Under the pieces are notes generated by a model. That model was not told the DNA's origin. It ran no database searches and saw only the letters and a list, made by a program, of their open reading frames with translations. From Candidatus Didemnitutus sp. (lineage in GTDB: Bacteria > Verrucomicrobiota > Verrucomicrobiia > Opitutales > Opitutaceae), in the NCBI GenBank assembly GCA_023701285.1, contig JAMPXH010000028.1:1-39429 (forward strand): a DNA stretch of 39,429 nucleotides. The letters are read 5' to 3'. A program made the position numbers and the translations under genes. Each line of letters starts with the position of its first letter. Position 1 is the stretch's first letter. Shown here in pieces: positions 3,558-35,445 of this stretch.

Positions 3558-3573
3558 ATCCCCCAGCCGGGAT
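3558..3573. repeat. Hairpin ATCCC...GGGAT at the edge of repeat copy A
   Basis: A 5-base inverted repeat, ATCCC (3558-3562) with GGGAT (3569-3573), abuts repeat copy A. The second copy has the same arms at 30518-30522 and 30530-30534 with a different loop. The element may therefore extend to include this hairpin. Confidence 0.5.
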
Positions 3574-3697
3574 TATGCAGGAGGTGGGGGTCGGTGTCCC
3601 TACCGACGCCTGTCGCCGCTGGGACAGCGGCGACCACCCCATTGGATGGCGCTCATCAGTCGGGAGTGGCGTCCAACTGCATGAGTCCGGCTCAGGC
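3569..3697 (+). repeat. Structured REP-like repeat, copy A
   Basis: This 129-base segment matches the reverse complement of 30395-30523 without gaps, with about nine mismatches by eye. It contains two tandem hairpins: GTCGGT-gtccct-ACCGAC (3590-3607) and GTCGCCGCT-gggac-AGCGGCGAC (3612-3634). The 45 bases holding both hairpins are identical between the copies. The loops GTCCC and GGGAC are exact complements. Outer arms ATGCAG (3575-3580) and CTGCAT (3677-3682) are inverted repeats of each other. No protein is encoded. The pattern fits a non-autonomous REP-type element moved in trans. Confidence 0.85.
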
Positions 3698-27642: not shown

Positions 27643-29502
<1,860 letters not shown>

Positions 29503-29518
29503 GCCCCATCCCTTGCTG

Positions 29519-29534
29519 CCAGCCGCAAGGCTGG
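29519..29534 (+). repeat. GCAA-tetraloop hairpin after ccsA
   Basis: CCAGCC-GCAA-GGCTGG is a perfect 6-base stem with a GNRA tetraloop, beginning 17 bases after the ccsA stop. It may protect the operon mRNA 3' end together with the hairpin that follows. Confidence 0.6.
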
Positions 29535-29555
29535 TATTAGTTAAAACCCCAATAA

Positions 29556-29588
29556 GAGGCCCGCGGGCATGTCCTGCGGGCCTCATCG
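29556..29588 (+). terminator. Probable terminator of the lipoprotein-resB-ccsA operon
   Basis: GAGGCCCGC (29556-29564) pairs with GCGGGCCTC (29576-29584). Only a short T run (ATCGTTT) follows, so the stem is strong but the tract is weak. Confidence 0.6.
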
Positions 29589-29799
29589 TTTCCGGGTGAC
29601 GAGCTCCGCATATTCCGCCCGCGCGACCGTCACGACACGAGCGGGCAAAAATAATTTCCGCCGCCTGCCAGCTTTCTTCTGCTTGGACACAAGGGATTTG
29701 TCCGCGGGTGCGCGCCATTATGACAATTCGGTCCGAAAAAAAGTCTGGTCTCGCCCCACTCGTTCCGCCTTACATGACCACGCATCAGGAAAGGATCGA

Positions 29800-29956
29800 C
29801 AGAGCAATCTGAAGATTCTGCCAACCGGGTCTAGGAGTGATCACGGTGGTTTCGAGTGACGCAAGTCACCCGGATGTGCGAGTCGCAAGGCTCGAACAAA
29901 AAACTCCTCCGACAAGCGAAAAGCCGCCTGATGCCCTCAGGCGGCTTTCGTTTTTT
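29800..29956 (+). ncRNA. Candidate structured leader RNA or attenuator
   Basis: Four structured pieces follow each other. AATC-TGAA-GATT is near 29806. GTGAC-GCAA-GTCAC is at 29856-29869. CGAGTC-GCAA-GGCTCG is at 29879-29894. The last is a terminator at 29917-29956. TTCGAG (29851-29856) can alternatively pair with CTCGAA (29891-29896), which would break both tetraloop hairpins, so two exclusive folds exist. A small gene starts 55 bases after the terminator. This is the layout of a riboswitch or attenuator, or of a free-standing small RNA. I could not match it to a known class. Confidence 0.5.
29917..29956 (+). terminator. Strong intrinsic terminator upstream of the small arm-like gene
   Basis: GCCGCCTGA (29923-29931) pairs with TCAGGCGGC (29937-29945). 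CGAAA and TTTCG flanks extend the stem, and a tract TTTCGTTTTTT follows. It lies between the leader hairpins and the ATG at 30011. Confidence 0.93.
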
Positions 29957-30010
29957 GGAAAAACCCTGATGCGCGAACGATTAACCCAACCTGCTAACCG
30001 CTCACGCATC

Positions 30011-30259
30011 ATGTCCAACGTCATCAGCCTCCCCGCCCTCCGCCTCAACCCGGAGAATCCCAACCACCACTTGTGGAACAACAACGGCACGTGGTTCCTC
30101 CACTACACCGTGTATCCCACGCCGTTCACCAAGGAGCGCATCCGCCGCTCCCTCGGCACCAAGGACGTCAACGTCGCCCGTCAGCGGCGTGATTCGTTCT
30201 TCCAGCATTTGCTCGGACAGAGCGCCCAGACCCCGGCCCGACAGACCGCCGTTGCTTAG
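30011..30259 (+). CDS. Small protein resembling the arm-DNA-binding domain of tyrosine recombinases
   Basis: 82 residues from ATG 30011 (MSNVISLPALRLNPE). The centre, HLWNNNGTWFLHYTVYP then KERIRRSLGTKDVNVARQRRD, has the three-strand-plus-helix pattern of the arm-site or N-terminal domain of phage-type integrases: a W-x-x-x-Y/H strand pair, then R-x-S-L-G-T-x-D and A-x-x-x-R-D at the helix. The core-binding and catalytic domains are absent, and no integrase remnant follows. It is bracketed by terminators at 29917-29956 and 30297-30332 and has no ribosome-binding site. It could be an orphan DNA-binding protein or a decayed recombinase start; the clean ends favour the first. Confidence 0.6.
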   Translation: MSNVISLPALRLNPENPNHHLWNNNGTWFLHYTVYPTPFTKERIRRSLGTKDVNVARQRRDSFFQHLLGQSAQTPARQTAVA

Positions 30260-30296
30260 TCTACCCCACCCCAGCGCGCTACATACCCCGATAGAC

Positions 30297-30332
30297 AACA
30301 AACCCGCGCTCCACGGCGCGGGTTTTGTTTTG
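30297..30332 (+). terminator. Intrinsic terminator after the small arm-like gene
   Basis: AACCCGCGC (30301-30309) pairs with GCGCGGGTT (30316-30324), with further A/T pairing outside and the tract TTTTGTTTT. It starts 38 bases after the stop. Confidence 0.92.
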
Positions 30333-30394
30333 GACGGGAATGCGGTGGCTGGCCCGAGGTCCGACACCGCCTCCGCGGAGGCCAGCGCACCGAG

Positions 30395-30523
30395 CCTCAG
30401 CCGGACTCATGCAGTTGGACGCGATTCCCGACTGATGAGCTCCTAACAATGGGGTGGTCGCCGCTGTCCCAGCGGCGACAGGCGTCGGTAGGGACACCGA
30501 CGCCCACCTCCTGCATGATCCCA
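30395..30523 (-). repeat. Structured REP-like repeat, copy B
   Basis: This is the inverted copy of 3569-3697, with about nine mismatches in 129 bases and no gaps. Both hairpins and their complementary loops are preserved. Its outer hairpin (ATCCC at 30518-30522, GGGAT at 30530-30534) overlaps the final codons and stop of the Sel1/LysM gene (stop at 30526-30528), so the element sits exactly at that gene's 3' end and may act as its mRNA terminus. Confidence 0.85.
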
Positions 30524-30525
30524 GC

Positions 30526-33500
30526 TCAGGGGATGCGGAGGCGCTGGCCGACGCGTAACGAGTTGGCCCCTTCGAGCACATCCCGGTTGGCGTTGAAGAT
30601 GTCCTGCCAGCGGTTCGCCGTGCCGTAGTAACGCAAGCTGAGCCGCGAGAGCGAATCGCCGTCGCTCACGATGTGATAGCGGACCTCGGCCGCCGGACGG
30701 GCCGCCGGTTCGCTCGCCGGCGAGCTCGGACCTTGGGCGGCTCCGGCCGCGATGCCGGAAGCCGGCGTGCCCAAGCGGGCCGCCGCCGCGATCTGGTCGA
30801 GCGTGCCCTGCGCCTGCGTGAGCCGCGCCGCCAAGGCGGCGTTCTCCTGCCGCAACTGCGTGACGACCGCCTGGCGGTCACGCTCCAACACGCGGTTCGC
30901 GCTGGTGAGCGACTCGTTGCTGGCCTGCAAGCGTTCCAATTCCCGGCGCAACTGGGCCAGCTGTGTGCCGGCGCCTTCGCTCGCCTGCGCTGCCGACCGC
31001 TCGGTTTCGAGCCGGCGCGCCTCGGCCGCCTGCTGGGCCGCGGCGAGACGCGTCACCTCGTCCTTGAGCTGCGCGAGCTCCGTGCGCGCGTCGTCGCGCT
31101 CGCGCGTCAGGCGGTCGCGTTCCTGCACCAGGCCGGTGGCACCCGTGGATTGTTCCGCCAGATCGCGCTCGGCATCGGCCAGCCGGATGCGCAGCGCGGC
31201 CAATTCGTCCTGCGCCTGGCGGGCGGCGCCTTGCTGCGTGGCGGCGAGTTGGGCCGCCTCGGTCTGCTGGCGGCGCAGCTGTTCGATCTGCTGCTGCGCG
31301 GCGGCCAGCTGGCCGTCGAGCGCCTGGACGCGTTCGCCCAGCGTGCGATTCTCCTGCGCGACGCGGTCGCTCGCCGCCGTGCTGGCGCGCTCCGCGGCCG
31401 CGAGACGCGTGCTGAGAGTAGCGATCTGAGTGCGCAGTTCCTCGCCCTCGCGCTCGAGTTTCTCGTTTTCCTGCGTCAGCTCGGCCACGGCGCTCGTGTG
31501 CGAGCCCTCGGCCTTCTCGGCTTCCGTCAGCTGGCCGCGCAAGGCCTCGCGCTCGGCGGCGAAACGTTCGTTCTCCGCCACGAGGGCCTCGTTCTGCCGG
31601 CGCAGTTCGTTGCCCGCCGCGGTCAGGTCACGCACGCGCGCCTGCAATTGATCGAACTCCGTGCGGTTCGGACGGTCGTCGACCTCGCGGGCCGACAGCA
31701 GCGCACGGTTGGCGTCGCCGAGCGCCTTGCTGGTCTCGCGCGCCTTCTGCAGCTGTTCCGCCAGCGTGCTGATCTCGCGGGCGGCGGCGATACGGTCGTC
31801 CTGTAACGAGGCCTCGAGCTGGTTGACGCGATCCTGCAGCGTGCGGATCTCCATCTGGAAGGCGTCGGGCCGGGCCGCGCTCACGGCCTGCGCCTGTGCG
31901 GCCAGCGCTGCCTCGGCGGTTTTCTTAGCGTTGGCAAAATCCTGTTCGAGCTGCTCGTTGGCGTGGGTGAGCTCCGCGACCTGCGCGCGGAGTTTCTCCG
32001 CGGCATCGGTCGCGCCGGCCAGCTCGGCGCGCAGACGCGCGAGCGCCTGCTCATCCTCGGGCTGCCGGGTGCGAACCGTGACGGTGCGTGCCTCCTCGAC
32101 TTCACGCTCAAGCGCGGCGATCCGCGTCTGGGCGGCGACCAGCTGCGGTTGCAGGGCCTGCGCTTCGCTCAGGGCTTTCGTCCTGACCGCGAGCGCCTGC
32201 GTGGCCTCGGCCAGCTGACGCTCCAACTCAGTGACGCGGCCCAACCGCTCGCCGGCGGCGCCGGCTTGGATACGCAGACGCTCGATCTCACGGCGCGCGG
32301 TCTCATCGGACGCGCGGAAGGTGGTGGCCTGCTGTTCGGCCGCCGCCAACCGCTGTTGCAGGGTGCCGAGTGCCTGCTTCGCCTCGGCCGCCTCCGCGGC
32401 CGCCGTTTGCAGCCGCGCGTTCTCAGTCGTGAGTTCGGCCACGCGGGCCGCGGCGCGTTGTCCGCCGGCCTGCTCGTCGCGCAATCCGGCCAGCTGGCTC
32501 TGGAGCCCGTCGGCGTCGGCGCGGAGGCCGGCGATGGTGCGTTCGTGATTCTCCTTGGCCTCGAGGGCGGCGACGAGTTCGCGCTCCAGCTTCTCGATGC
32601 GGGCGACATCGCGCGTGCTGCTCCCAGCCCGGGCACGCAAGGTGGCGAGCTCACGCTGGGCCGCGTCCGCGGTCTCGCGCTGGGTGACCACCGCCTGCTC
32701 GGCGGCGGTCAGGCGCTGCTGCAACGCGGCGACTTCCTGACGGGCAGCGGCAGATGCCTCGGCGGCCTGCTGCTCCAGCGCAGCGATGCGCGCGCGGGCG
32801 TCGGCGAGGGCGCGCGGATCGGGCGCGGACGCCTTCAGGCGGTCGTTCTCGGCGGAAAGTTCCTGCAGGCGGGCGGCGAGTGCGGGCACCTGCGCGGCCT
32901 CGCGGCGCCAGGCCGCGCCCTGCTCCTGCAACGTGGCGAGCTGCTGCTCCAAGGCGGTCTTCGCGGCGGTGAGCTGCGTGAGCGCAGCCTCGCGTTCGGT
33001 GGCGGTGCGAGTCACCTCAGTCAGCTGCCGCTCCACTTGCTGCAAGCGCTCGGTTTGCGGAGCGGATGCGGTCGCCAGGCGGCGCAGCTCCTCCATCTCG
33101 CGGCGGGCGGCGGCCGCATCGGCGCGCAGCGCGGCCGCTTCCTGCTCGGTGCCGGTCAACCGCGTCTGCAAAGCAGCGAGACTGGCCTGCGCCTCCGTCA
33201 GCTCCGTCGTGGTGCGCTGCAGCAACCGGCGGCCTTCCTCGCCGCTGGCGGCGGCGGCAACCGCGGCCGCCCGGGCCGTCTCGGTCGCAGTGAGTTTCTC
33301 CTGCAAGGTCGTGAGCGCGCCTTCGCGCAGGCCGAGCGTGGTGCGCAACTCCGCGAGCTGCTGGCGCAGGGCATCGACCTCGGAGCCGCCGCTGCGGGCC
33401 GAGTCGCGCACCTGCGCGAGTTCGGCTTCCAGGGCGGTGGCGCGCTGGCGCTCGGTCTCGAGCGAGGCGCGGACGGATTGGAATTCGCGGCGCAGTTCCA

Positions 33501-35445
33501 GCGCCTGTTCGCGGATGCTCGTGCGGTCGGCTTCGGCCGTGGCCAACTGGATCTGGAGATCCTCGGCCTGACGTCGGGCGGCGATCAAGGGGGCGTCGTT
33601 GCGCTCGGCCGCGGCGGCGAGCTTGGCGTTCTGCGCCTCCAGCTGCTTCACCTGCTCCTGCAACTGGGCCAGGGCCTGCTGGCCGGCGCTGCCGGCGGAA
33701 ACCTGCGTGCGGGCTTCGGCGAGCGCGCGTTCGAGTTCGGTCACGCGGTTGGCATCGCTCGAGGCGGAAGCACGCAGGGCATCGAGTTCCTCCTGCAACT
33801 TGGCCATCTGGCGGCGGCTCTCGGTGGCGGCCTGCTGGGCGTCCGCCAGCTGCGCGCGCGCGCTTTCGAGATCGGCGGGACTCACGCCACCGGCGCGGAG
33901 GCGCTTCAATTCGGATTCGAGGCGGTCGTTCAGCGCCCGCAGCGTGCTGGCCTCGCCCGCGGCCCGGCGCAACCGGGCCACGTCGTCCTGCAACTGGCGG
34001 ATGTCGACGGAAGCAGTCGAAGGCTCGCGGACGTTGCCTGCCTCACGTTGGAGCCGGGCGACGGTGGCGCTGCCTTGCTCGATTTGCTCGCGAGCGGCGG
34101 CCAGTTCGGCCTGCAGCTTGGCCACCTCATCGGGAGCGGAGGAAGGAGCTTGGCGCGCCGCTTCGAGCTCGCCCTGCAGGCGGGTGACGGCGGCGGTGCT
34201 TTGCGCGAGTTGCTGGCGCAGGTTGGCAAGCTCGGCCTGCTGGCGCTCCGCCTCGCCGGTCGCCGCGGTGGCGCCGGCGGCGCGCTCGGCGAGTGTTTTC
34301 TCCAAAGAGTCGATCCGGCGCTGGAGTTCGGCCTGCTCCGCCTGCCAGCGGGTGCGCTCGGTCACGAGTTCCTGATTCAGCGCCGTCAGGCGGGCGTTGG
34401 CCGCGGTGGCGCGGTCGAGTTCGGCCCGGATATTGGCGGGCACGGTCGCCGAGGCCGCAGCACCGGAGGTGGTGGCGACGTCGGGAAGCGGAGCGGGCTT
34501 CGCGGTGGCGAGGCTCGAGCCGGAAGCCATGGCGACGCCGCGCGCACGCAGGCCGTCACGCAAGCGGGCCAGATGACGGTCCGCCTCGGTGCGCTCGGCC
34601 GGAGTCAGGACACCGGCGAGGTGGTCGCGCCCGAGCGGGGAGACGCCGTTCTCCGCCGCCAGCGTGAGCCAGGCGAAAGCGAGGCTCGCGTCCTTGGGCA
34701 AACCGCCGCGACCTTCGCCATACATCAGACCCAGATTGTTCTGTGCGGCGGCGAAGCCTTGCTCGGCGGCCGCCCGATAAAGGACGGCTGCGGTGCGCTC
34801 GTCCTTGGCCGGGCCACGCCCGTCCTCAAGCAGCAAGCCGAGGTTGTATTGCGCGGGCGCGTAGCCCTGCTCGGCCGCCAGCTTATACCAGCGGGCGGCC
34901 TGCATGAGATCGGCGCGCACGCCGCGTCCGGTCTCGTAGAGGATGCCGAGATTGTGCTGGGCCTCGACGATGCCCTTCTCCCCGGCCTGTTTGAACCAGA
35001 CTTGCGCCTCGAAATCGTCCTTCGCCACACCCTTGCCGCTGGCATACATGTTGCCGACGTTGAACTGGGCCGGCCCGTGCCCTTGCTCGGCCGCGGCGAG
35101 GTAGAGACGGAAGGCCTGCCCGATGTCGGCCGGCACGCCGCGCCCGAGTTCGTAGGCGAGAGCGAGATTGAACTGGGCGGGGGCAAAACGCTTCTCGGCC
35201 GCACGCCGATACCACTCCGCGGCTTCCTCGAATTGTCCGGCGGCGGTCAGCGCGGTGCCGAGCGAATTCTGCGCCTCCGCGGCGCCGGCTTGGGCGCGCT
35301 CGCGCAACTCAGTCAGATTGGCCGCCGCGGGCTGAGCCGGGGCGGCGGGCGCCACGAGCAAGGCGCACAGGAACACCACGATGCGCCAGTGACGCGAGGA
35401 AAAGGGTCTGACTGTTCTCCAGAGGGGGCCGACGGAAGATCGCAC
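30526..35445 (-). CDS. Giant secreted Sel1-repeat / coiled-coil / LysM protein
   Basis: 1639 residues from GTG 35445, with an N-terminal signal peptide (basic lead 1-20, hydrophobic 21-33, cut near APA-Q at 35-38). Residues about 50-275 are six or so Sel1-type TPR repeats (AQFNLALAYELGRGVP, AQHNLGILYETGRGVR, AQYNLGLLLEDGRGPA). Residues about 335-1540 are continuous heptad-like helix rich in Ala, Gln, Glu, Leu and Arg. The last 52 residues (1588-1639) are a LysM domain (YHIVSDGDSLSRLSLRYYG ... LRVGQRLRIP) that should bind peptidoglycan. The helix could span more than 100 nm. A periplasmic scaffold or tether is the inference. The gene begins three bases after the ATP-grasp-like gene, so the two are coupled. 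There is no alternative ATG start near the signal. Confidence 0.88.
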   Translation of the reverse strand: MRSSVGPLWRTVRPFSSRHWRIVVFLCALLVAPAAPAQPAAANLTELRERAQAGAAEAQNSLGTALTAAGQFEEAAEWYRRAAEKRFAPAQFNLALAYELGRGVPADIGQAFRLYLAAAEQGHGPAQFNVGNMYASGKGVAKDDFEAQVWFKQAGEKGIVEAQHNLGILYETGRGVRADLMQAARWYKLAAEQGYAPAQYNLGLLLEDGRGPAKDERTAAVLYRAAAEQGFAAAQNNLGLMYGEGRGGLPKDASLAFAWLTLAAENGVSPLGRDHLAGVLTPAERTEADRHLARLRDGLRARGVAMASGSSLATAKPAPLPDVATTSGAAASATVPANIRAELDRATAANARLTALNQELVTERTRWQAEQAELQRRIDSLEKTLAERAAGATAATGEAERQQAELANLRQQLAQSTAAVTRLQGELEAARQAPSSAPDEVAKLQAELAAAREQIEQGSATVARLQREAGNVREPSTASVDIRQLQDDVARLRRAAGEASTLRALNDRLESELKRLRAGGVSPADLESARAQLADAQQAATESRRQMAKLQEELDALRASASSDANRVTELERALAEARTQVSAGSAGQQALAQLQEQVKQLEAQNAKLAAAAERNDAPLIAARRQAEDLQIQLATAEADRTSIREQALELRREFQSVRASLETERQRATALEAELAQVRDSARSGGSEVDALRQQLAELRTTLGLREGALTTLQEKLTATETARAAAVAAAASGEEGRRLLQRTTTELTEAQASLAALQTRLTGTEQEAAALRADAAAARREMEELRRLATASAPQTERLQQVERQLTEVTRTATEREAALTQLTAAKTALEQQLATLQEQGAAWRREAAQVPALAARLQELSAENDRLKASAPDPRALADARARIAALEQQAAEASAAARQEVAALQQRLTAAEQAVVTQRETADAAQRELATLRARAGSSTRDVARIEKLERELVAALEAKENHERTIAGLRADADGLQSQLAGLRDEQAGGQRAAARVAELTTENARLQTAAAEAAEAKQALGTLQQRLAAAEQQATTFRASDETARREIERLRIQAGAAGERLGRVTELERQLAEATQALAVRTKALSEAQALQPQLVAAQTRIAALEREVEEARTVTVRTRQPEDEQALARLRAELAGATDAAEKLRAQVAELTHANEQLEQDFANAKKTAEAALAAQAQAVSAARPDAFQMEIRTLQDRVNQLEASLQDDRIAAAREISTLAEQLQKARETSKALGDANRALLSAREVDDRPNRTEFDQLQARVRDLTAAGNELRRQNEALVAENERFAAEREALRGQLTEAEKAEGSHTSAVAELTQENEKLEREGEELRTQIATLSTRLAAAERASTAASDRVAQENRTLGERVQALDGQLAAAQQQIEQLRRQQTEAAQLAATQQGAARQAQDELAALRIRLADAERDLAEQSTGATGLVQERDRLTRERDDARTELAQLKDEVTRLAAAQQAAEARRLETERSAAQASEGAGTQLAQLRRELERLQASNESLTSANRVLERDRQAVVTQLRQENAALAARLTQAQGTLDQIAAAARLGTPASGIAAGAAQGPSSPASEPAARPAAEVRYHIVSDGDSLSRLSLRYYGTANRWQDIFNANRDVLEGANSLRVGQRLRIP

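Follow-up and report, generated by a model that had tools for sequence, protein, structure and literature searches.

A composite repeat with IS1380-type ends and a REPIN core in the genome of Candidatus Didemnitutus sp.

Candidatus Didemnitutus sp. belongs to the Opitutaceae (Verrucomicrobiota). A 39,429-nt stretch of its contig JAMPXH010000028.1, referred to here as "the window", contains two copies of a short repeat, 27 kb apart and in opposite orientation. The initial annotation, made from the sequence alone, described them as a 129-base structured repeat and read the pair as a sign of either selection on structure or recent mobilization of a non-autonomous element. What kind of repeat is this, how did it spread, and what explains where its copies lie? 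Here, we describe the repeat in its own genome (assembly GCA_023701285.1, "G000"; a draft of 4,019,905 bases, i.e., 4.0 Mb, in 220 contigs) and in other genomes. The repeat is very probably a MITE that combines an IS1380-type shell with a REPIN cargo, was placed at CTNAG by an IS1380 transposase, and survives at gene ends.

Copies, ends and empty sites

A sequence search aligned the two window copies without gaps and in opposite orientation over 138 bp, with 91% identity. In an exact comparison, positions 3562-3695 and the reverse complement of 30396-30529 differ at 12 of 134 positions. The inverted, gap-free pairing first described is borne out, with its register corrected by one base (3569 pairs with 30522, not 30523). 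Nine of the 12 differences are located at or after 3569, in agreement with an earlier count of about nine by eye. The differences had been described as clustering outside an identical two-hairpin core; this is nearly so, the core having a single difference, at 3589. The codon-usage caller predicts no gene inside the repeat, as originally stated, and does not count the open frames overlapping copy 1 as coding. The element measures 124 bp, or 129 bp together with its 5-bp target, and the two copies consist of the following parts:

3562..3566, + strand: left target-site copy next to copy 1, CCCAG (CTCAG with one change)
3567..3690, + strand: composite MITE copy 1, 124 bp
3567..3580, + strand: left terminal inverted repeat of copy 1, an IS1380-type end
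3583..3638, + strand: REPIN core of copy 1, two inverted GTGG-tagged hairpin REPs
3677..3690, + strand: right terminal inverted repeat of copy 1
3691..3695, + strand: right target-site copy of copy 1 (CTCAG)
30396..30400, − strand: right target-site copy next to copy 2, minus-strand sequence CTGAG
30401..30524, − strand: composite MITE copy 2, 124 bp, absent from the same place in the relative G012
30453..30508, − strand: REPIN core of copy 2
30525..30529, − strand: left target-site copy of copy 2 (CTGAG), whose TGA is the stop codon of a Sel1/LysM frame, 30526-35445 (−)

The window pair is a small sample of a large family. With copy 1 as the query, scoring 40 of the 128 initial candidates in G000 yielded 40 full-length matches of 89–100% identity and four short, weak ones. 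When as many as three mismatches were tolerated, a pattern of 32 core bases matched 87 times (46 + 41), and its reversed control did not match at all. All 87 core matches were fetched and inspected for ends. Both shell ends are present in 80 (at most five mismatches per end; 74 of the 80 are within three), while in the other seven the left end alone is recognized, five being cut by a contig end and two having a damaged right end. The end pattern itself matched 150 times in G000, as compared to 13 times for its reverse. Among the 71 end matches with no more than one mismatch, 11 have no core nearby; on reading, two of these are not copies and nine are further copies or remnants (five cut by a contig end, two with an inner deletion, one decayed and one rearranged). 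The total is at least 96 copies or remnants. At L293 and L297, an internal deletion has removed most of one hairpin from the copy, and both ends are still recognizable. A search of the genome-contig database with the exact composite pattern gave no match, the records of this genome possibly being excluded there. The flanks of the copies are unrelated: when 154 100-base flanks were compared, a single pair was alike. A duplicated gene end was rejected as the origin on this ground. Thus, the repeat is short, has no called gene, and is present in many copies.

From left to right, the element consists of the left end CCGGGATCATGCAG, the core GGTGGGCGTCGGTGTCCCTACCGACGCCTGTCGCCGCTGGGACAGCGGCGACCACC, a 38-base spacer and the right end CTGCATGAGTCCGG. 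Copies terminate in CCGGNNTCATGCAG inverted repeats, with 14-bp ends, and the mobile unit is bounded by CCGG...CCGG. CTNAG is present on both sides of 54 of the 80 two-ended copies and missing from one or both sides of the other 26. The pairs seen most often are CTGAG/CTGAG (28 copies) and CTCAG/CTCAG (23 copies). The center base of CTNAG is the same on both sides in 51 of the 54 cases, whereas 20,000 permutations gave a mean of 26.2 and a maximum of 40. The flanking CTNAG pair is a 5-bp target duplication.

A near relative from the same genus, G012 (86% complete; flanking DNA 97% and 93% identical), reveals what such sites look like when empty. At the site of copy 2, window positions 28400-30400 match G012 up to its base 28962 and positions 30525-31600 match from its base 28958; these two matches have exactly 5 bases in common, and G012 lacks the 124 bases in between. 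The flanks of all 80 copies were compared to 40 stretches of G012, about 0.78 Mb in total. For 20 of the 80, both flanks lie near each other in G012, and the element is present at none of these 20 sites. Six sites have an exact 5-base overlap and two a 4-base overlap; at the other 12, the spacers are altered and the junction is not clean. In all six exact cases, the empty target is CTNAG. For the remaining 60 copies, 45 had no match, 14 matched on one side, and one matched on both sides, far apart. No ends were found in G012 by pattern, and no cores. A loose 17-base pattern for the left end-core junction matched 14 times in the G012 stretches (reversed pattern, five times), and an end or core adjoins none of the 14. 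Since G012 is without the element at the compared sites, and without ends or cores, the spread of the element most likely postdates the split from G012. Together, the target duplication and the empty sites bear out the mobilization of a non-autonomous element, one of the two readings first offered.

It had also been suggested that the inverted copies could drive an inversion of the segment between them. No inversion is seen over the 16.5–39.4 kb part that could be compared: window positions 16538-39427 match positions 15107-37867 of G012 contig C14 collinearly and without a change of orientation, through copy 2. To the left of 16538, including the part from 3.7 to 16.5 kb, there is no match longer than 250 bp in the 39.5 kb of C14 examined, and hence a break in order is there and not at either repeat copy. 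G012 has a near-perfect palindrome of its own, TTTGTAGTCTAATAGACTACAA, twice at each of two sites (L242 and L234), apparently another GTAG-bearing repeat family of that genome.

IS1380 elements with matching ends

With one mismatch allowed, the end pattern CTNAGCCGGNNTCATGCAG matches in 39 of 141 genomes (including G000). The same family accounts for 37 of these; many of the 39 have a single match, and several of these single-match genomes are near the background set by the reversed pattern, which matched five times in all. A longer end pattern found 23 named stretches, of which 21 are from Opitutus, Opitutaceae, Opitutae, Opitutia or Oleiharenicola, one from Verrucomicrobia and one from Akkermansiaceae.

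In G025, such ends come in pairs separated by 1.5 kb. Three elements there, each 1,500 bp long with the 5-mers counted in, have ends that read CCGGACTCATGCA(G/A) and are flanked on either side by an equal CTNAG; between the ends, each encodes a 476-aa transposase in a frame free of stops. In a profile search, this transposase was assigned to the IS1380 family (NF033539, E 5.2e-72; PF13701, E 1.1e-37). The right end of our element is identical to the G025 ends over 14 bases, and the left end differs at two positions (CCGGGATC in our element, CCGGACTC in G025). The repeat therefore has ends in common with an autonomous element, and it shares both ends and target with intact IS1380-family insertion sequences of the same bacterial family. 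The remaining two of the five IS1380 copies in G025 (at L032 and L033) are interrupted by inserts of about 1.2–1.4 kb; their lengths are 2,731 and 2,899 bp, and one of them has unequal 5-mers. The L032 insert has an open frame that, by eye, resembles an IS3-type integrase.

Pieces of IS1380 transposase adjoin such ends at G022:C175 and G033:C68; the transposase piece at G033:C20 was found to have no end next to it. G009, a member of the same genus, has an intact relative (45% identity) with similar ends and unequal 5-mers, and the relatives in G065 and G077 are broken, their ends being weak. In G004, also of the same genus, at least nine listed contigs start about 120 bases before such an end. 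Of three such contig ends that were read, L051 shares 78% identity with the G025 insertion sequence over 121 bases, and the other two match over 18–34 bases only. Other genomes have MITEs with the same ends and different interiors.

An IS1380-family transposase between such ends is found in G025 and not in G000, where there are no IS1380 transposase matches at E up to 1e-10 and no match to PF01609. Because G000 is a draft in 220 contigs, a missing transposase is weak counter-evidence. The shared ends and target suggest that the repeat was moved by an IS1380 transposase: a DDE transposase of this family would act on the 14-bp ends and would use the 5-bp palindrome CTNAG as its insertion target, which is duplicated. 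To our knowledge, CTNAG has not been described as a target of the IS1380 family, and a literature search found no report of a MITE with IS1380 ends.

Position at gene ends

Genes were positioned with a codon-usage caller trained on G000, and the same caller was applied to 18 foreign elements. The context was counted for 71 of the 80 two-ended copies, i.e., those with at least 400 bases on both sides. None of the 71 lies within a called gene. For 51 of them, a neighboring gene has its stop codon in the TGA of the duplicated CTGAG, on the left in 31 copies and on the right in 20. Copy 2 of the window supplies a stop codon in this way, and copy 1 is an ordinary intergenic insertion. Several of the genes that share their stop codon with a copy look well known by eye, e.g., one encoding a MutS C-terminus. 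In 43 of 80 copies, the left end-core junction (3580-3587 in the window) reads AGGAGGTG, a Shine-Dalgarno-like sequence a few bases past the stop codon.

How much of this placement follows from the target alone? By its letters, CTNAG always has a TAA or TGA on one strand. Free CTSAG sites (CTSAG only) were counted as a control in 438 kb, comprising the window and 20 chosen stretches: 315 are in genes, 59 are between genes, and 51 are at stop codons. Of 322 stop contexts, 52 are CTGAG, more than any other. Avoidance of genes together with the motif would therefore put 46% of copies at stop codons (51 of 110 free non-genic sites). The observed fraction is 72% (51/71; Fisher p 8e-4). Convergent gene pairs are also enriched among the copies (38/70 vs 24/108 among free sites; Fisher p 2e-5), and the excess at stop codons is seen among convergent pairs alone (31/38 vs 12/24, p 0.012).

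We favor selection as the source of this excess. Since CTNAG contains a stop codon, insertion at a gene end duplicates the stop, and the protein stays intact. Such insertions would apparently do little harm, and copies would survive at these stop sites and at convergent gene ends. Selection against harm is enough to produce most of the stop-codon excess, and the motif and selection together explain most of the stop-codon placement. An alternative is that the transposase actively finds gene ends, by something beyond CTNAG. The excess over free non-genic CTSAG sites, which persists within convergent pairs, speaks for such targeting, as does the position of the foreign two-ended elements with these ends, 9 of 18 being exactly on a stop codon, including all three intact G025 insertion sequences; the G009 and G065 elements are not on stop codons. 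However, 46% of free non-genic CTSAG sites are stop codons already, and the avoidance of promoters by selection can account for the threefold odds ratio. We consider active targeting unlikely, and placement through selection the more plausible reading.

The hairpins might instead be kept for a role at the 3' ends of mRNAs, in transcript stabilization or termination, with the position after the stop codon being the function itself. Indeed, 51 of 71 copies directly follow a stop codon, and the enrichments at stop sites and between convergent genes are as expected for such a role. The structure gives further grounds: (i) both window copies fold better than shuffled sequences on either strand (z −3.1 to −5.2); and (ii) the core varies least, diverging from the consensus by 2.4%, as compared to 5–7% for the ends and spacer and 4.8% for whole copies. 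However, copies were chosen by their similarity to the core (at most three mismatches in 32 bases), which lowers core divergence and makes the 2.4% a lower bound. Paired positions do not covary beyond chance, with a score of 0.043 for both the real and the shuffled alignments, and two-sided changes occur at two pairs, as compared to 2.2 in shuffles. There are no compensatory base changes above that level, and covariation as a sign of a selected RNA was rejected. Rfam has no match in the window at gathering scores, so the repeat does not belong to a described family there. Moreover, two copies have lost most of a hairpin, and the genes at the 20 compared sites manage without the element in G012. 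Selection on structure, the other reading first offered, is thus not upheld, and a function at mRNA ends is quite improbable; nothing observed here requires an RNA role.

The core and related systems

If the shell is of IS1380 type, what is inside it? The two halves of the core are inverted versions of each other, and both are headed by GGTGG, i.e., they form two inverted REPs with the GTRG tag. The core was found in 11 of 141 genomes (G000 included). Long matches end at base 57–61 of the 79-base query, and in relatives, the core is a unit of about 56–60 bp with clear borders. G001, a genome without the ends, has a core copy that is 98% identical over 57 bases, with flanks unlike the shell. 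In the same genome, the RAYT-like gene at C17:797565-798041 has a core copy on either side, and a homologue of that gene in G008 is adjoined by related hairpins. On the basis of the stand-alone core in relatives, the inverted GGTGG halves and the RAYT neighbors, the core is a REPIN, and the whole element is a composite. The initial annotation had pointed to REPs and RAYT genes; the idea applies to the core, beside which such genes are indeed found in G001 and G008, and does not apply to the present ends, which are of IS1380 type and have a duplicated CTNAG target.

The situation in G000 is different. There is one RAYT homologue, which has an inner TGA, and no free-standing core: all 87 cores (within three mismatches) keep at least one shell end. 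Free-standing copies alongside an intact RAYT gene were not found in this genome. Could a RAYT tyrosine transposase nevertheless have moved the REPIN, the outer repeats being incidental? The RAYT-like genes beside the REP pair in G001 and G008, and the homologue in G000, make the question reasonable, but such movement is highly improbable given the shell ends on all 87 cores, a mobile unit that ends in CCGG...CCGG with a duplicated 5-bp target, which would not be expected of a REP/RAYT unit, the inner TGA of the homologue, and the different inverted repeats of the other Y1 gene.

This other Y1 gene, in region 1400-2480 of L031 (G000:C144), is a 340-aa open frame and the only PF01797 match in G000 (E up to 0.001). 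It is bracketed by inverted repeats around GTCATGGCTTGACTCTTGAC. We rejected it as a partner because its inverted repeats differ from those of the element. Six genomes of the genus have a RAYT-like gene close to mutS, at a distance of about 0.1–0.6 kb (G012:C7:34314-35570, G001:C16, G002:C64, G003:C5, G004:C44 and G006:C2). In G000, the mutS stop codon carries a MITE copy, and no RAYT-like match was found there. The gene at L031 resembles the TIR-associated tyrosine transposases (TIRYT) as they are described in passages of PMC3733652.

The composite reading makes the gene-less shell the carrier of a repeat that belongs to another mobile system. The REPIN consists of two head-to-head GTGG-tagged REP hairpins and, in sister species, occurs alone and alongside RAYT genes. 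Capture of the REPIN by the shell, rather than the reverse, is the likely order of events. G006 has one diverged, nearly full composite with both ends, the only such copy seen elsewhere, and in G002, a left end and core are recognized and no more. In both, the end is followed by AATAG, which is also the case for the G025 insertion sequence. The interiors of other MITEs were compared among the sequences gathered here. A 301-bp MITE of G006 has a second REPIN-like cargo, and its inner pair is also present at two further G006 loci, with 73–77% identity and no end within four mismatches at either.

Several known systems resemble this element in part. In the passages of PMC3733652 concerned, most GTAG-20 REPs of Opitutus terrae carry GTGG, REP ends often supply the stop codon to flanking ORFs, and REPs or REP pairs are regularly embedded in longer inverted repeats in A. 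variabilis, T. roseum and H. neapolitanus. As described there, GTAG-20 REPs resemble the core, which is also a head-to-head pair with a GTGG tag and has RAYT neighbors in relatives. By contrast, all copies found in G000 are enclosed by a transposon shell, whose target provides the stop codon. The palindrome-embedded REPs are like the composite, although that section of PMC3733652 reports no transposase, target duplication or empty site for them. RUP (107 bp, 108 copies) has ends like those of the autonomous IS630-Spn1 (PMC2229807), and so is likewise a small element with many copies and IS-type ends; its targets contain TA, and the passages of that source that describe it include no REPIN cargo or stop-codon position. 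For ISPsp10, of the IS5 family, the insertion target also supplies a stop codon (passages of PMC4133298), but the stop serves its own transposase gene, in one insertion event and in a different family.

Literature searches on MITEs and stop codons, and on REPs of Opitutaceae, found nothing useful in the first case and nothing in the second. The MIRU of Mycobacterium tuberculosis are small repeats that, like the element here, insert at stop codons (TGA); they differ in carrying small open frames and in their ends. A literature search for MIRU insertion at stop codons found nothing.

A MITE burst is of a known kind; what is unusual here is the make of the element, with IS1380-type ends, a REPIN cargo and a stop-codon target. 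Tentatively, an IS1380 subgroup of the Opitutaceae may target the two-way stop palindrome CTNAG and, as each hit at a gene end would rebuild the stop, find a renewable safe harbor in gene ends; REPINs that lost their RAYT may persist in the MITEs of this subgroup. At least two cargoes would be of this type, namely the G000 element and the 301-bp MITE of G006. In any case, one element joins the REPINs of tyrosine transposases and the MITEs of DDE transposons, which are usually treated apart. The absence of copies from G012 provides occupied and empty alleles with which effects at mRNA ends can be tested. A duplicated target motif that contains a stop codon offers a simple possible reason for the presence of small repeats at the 3' ends of genes.
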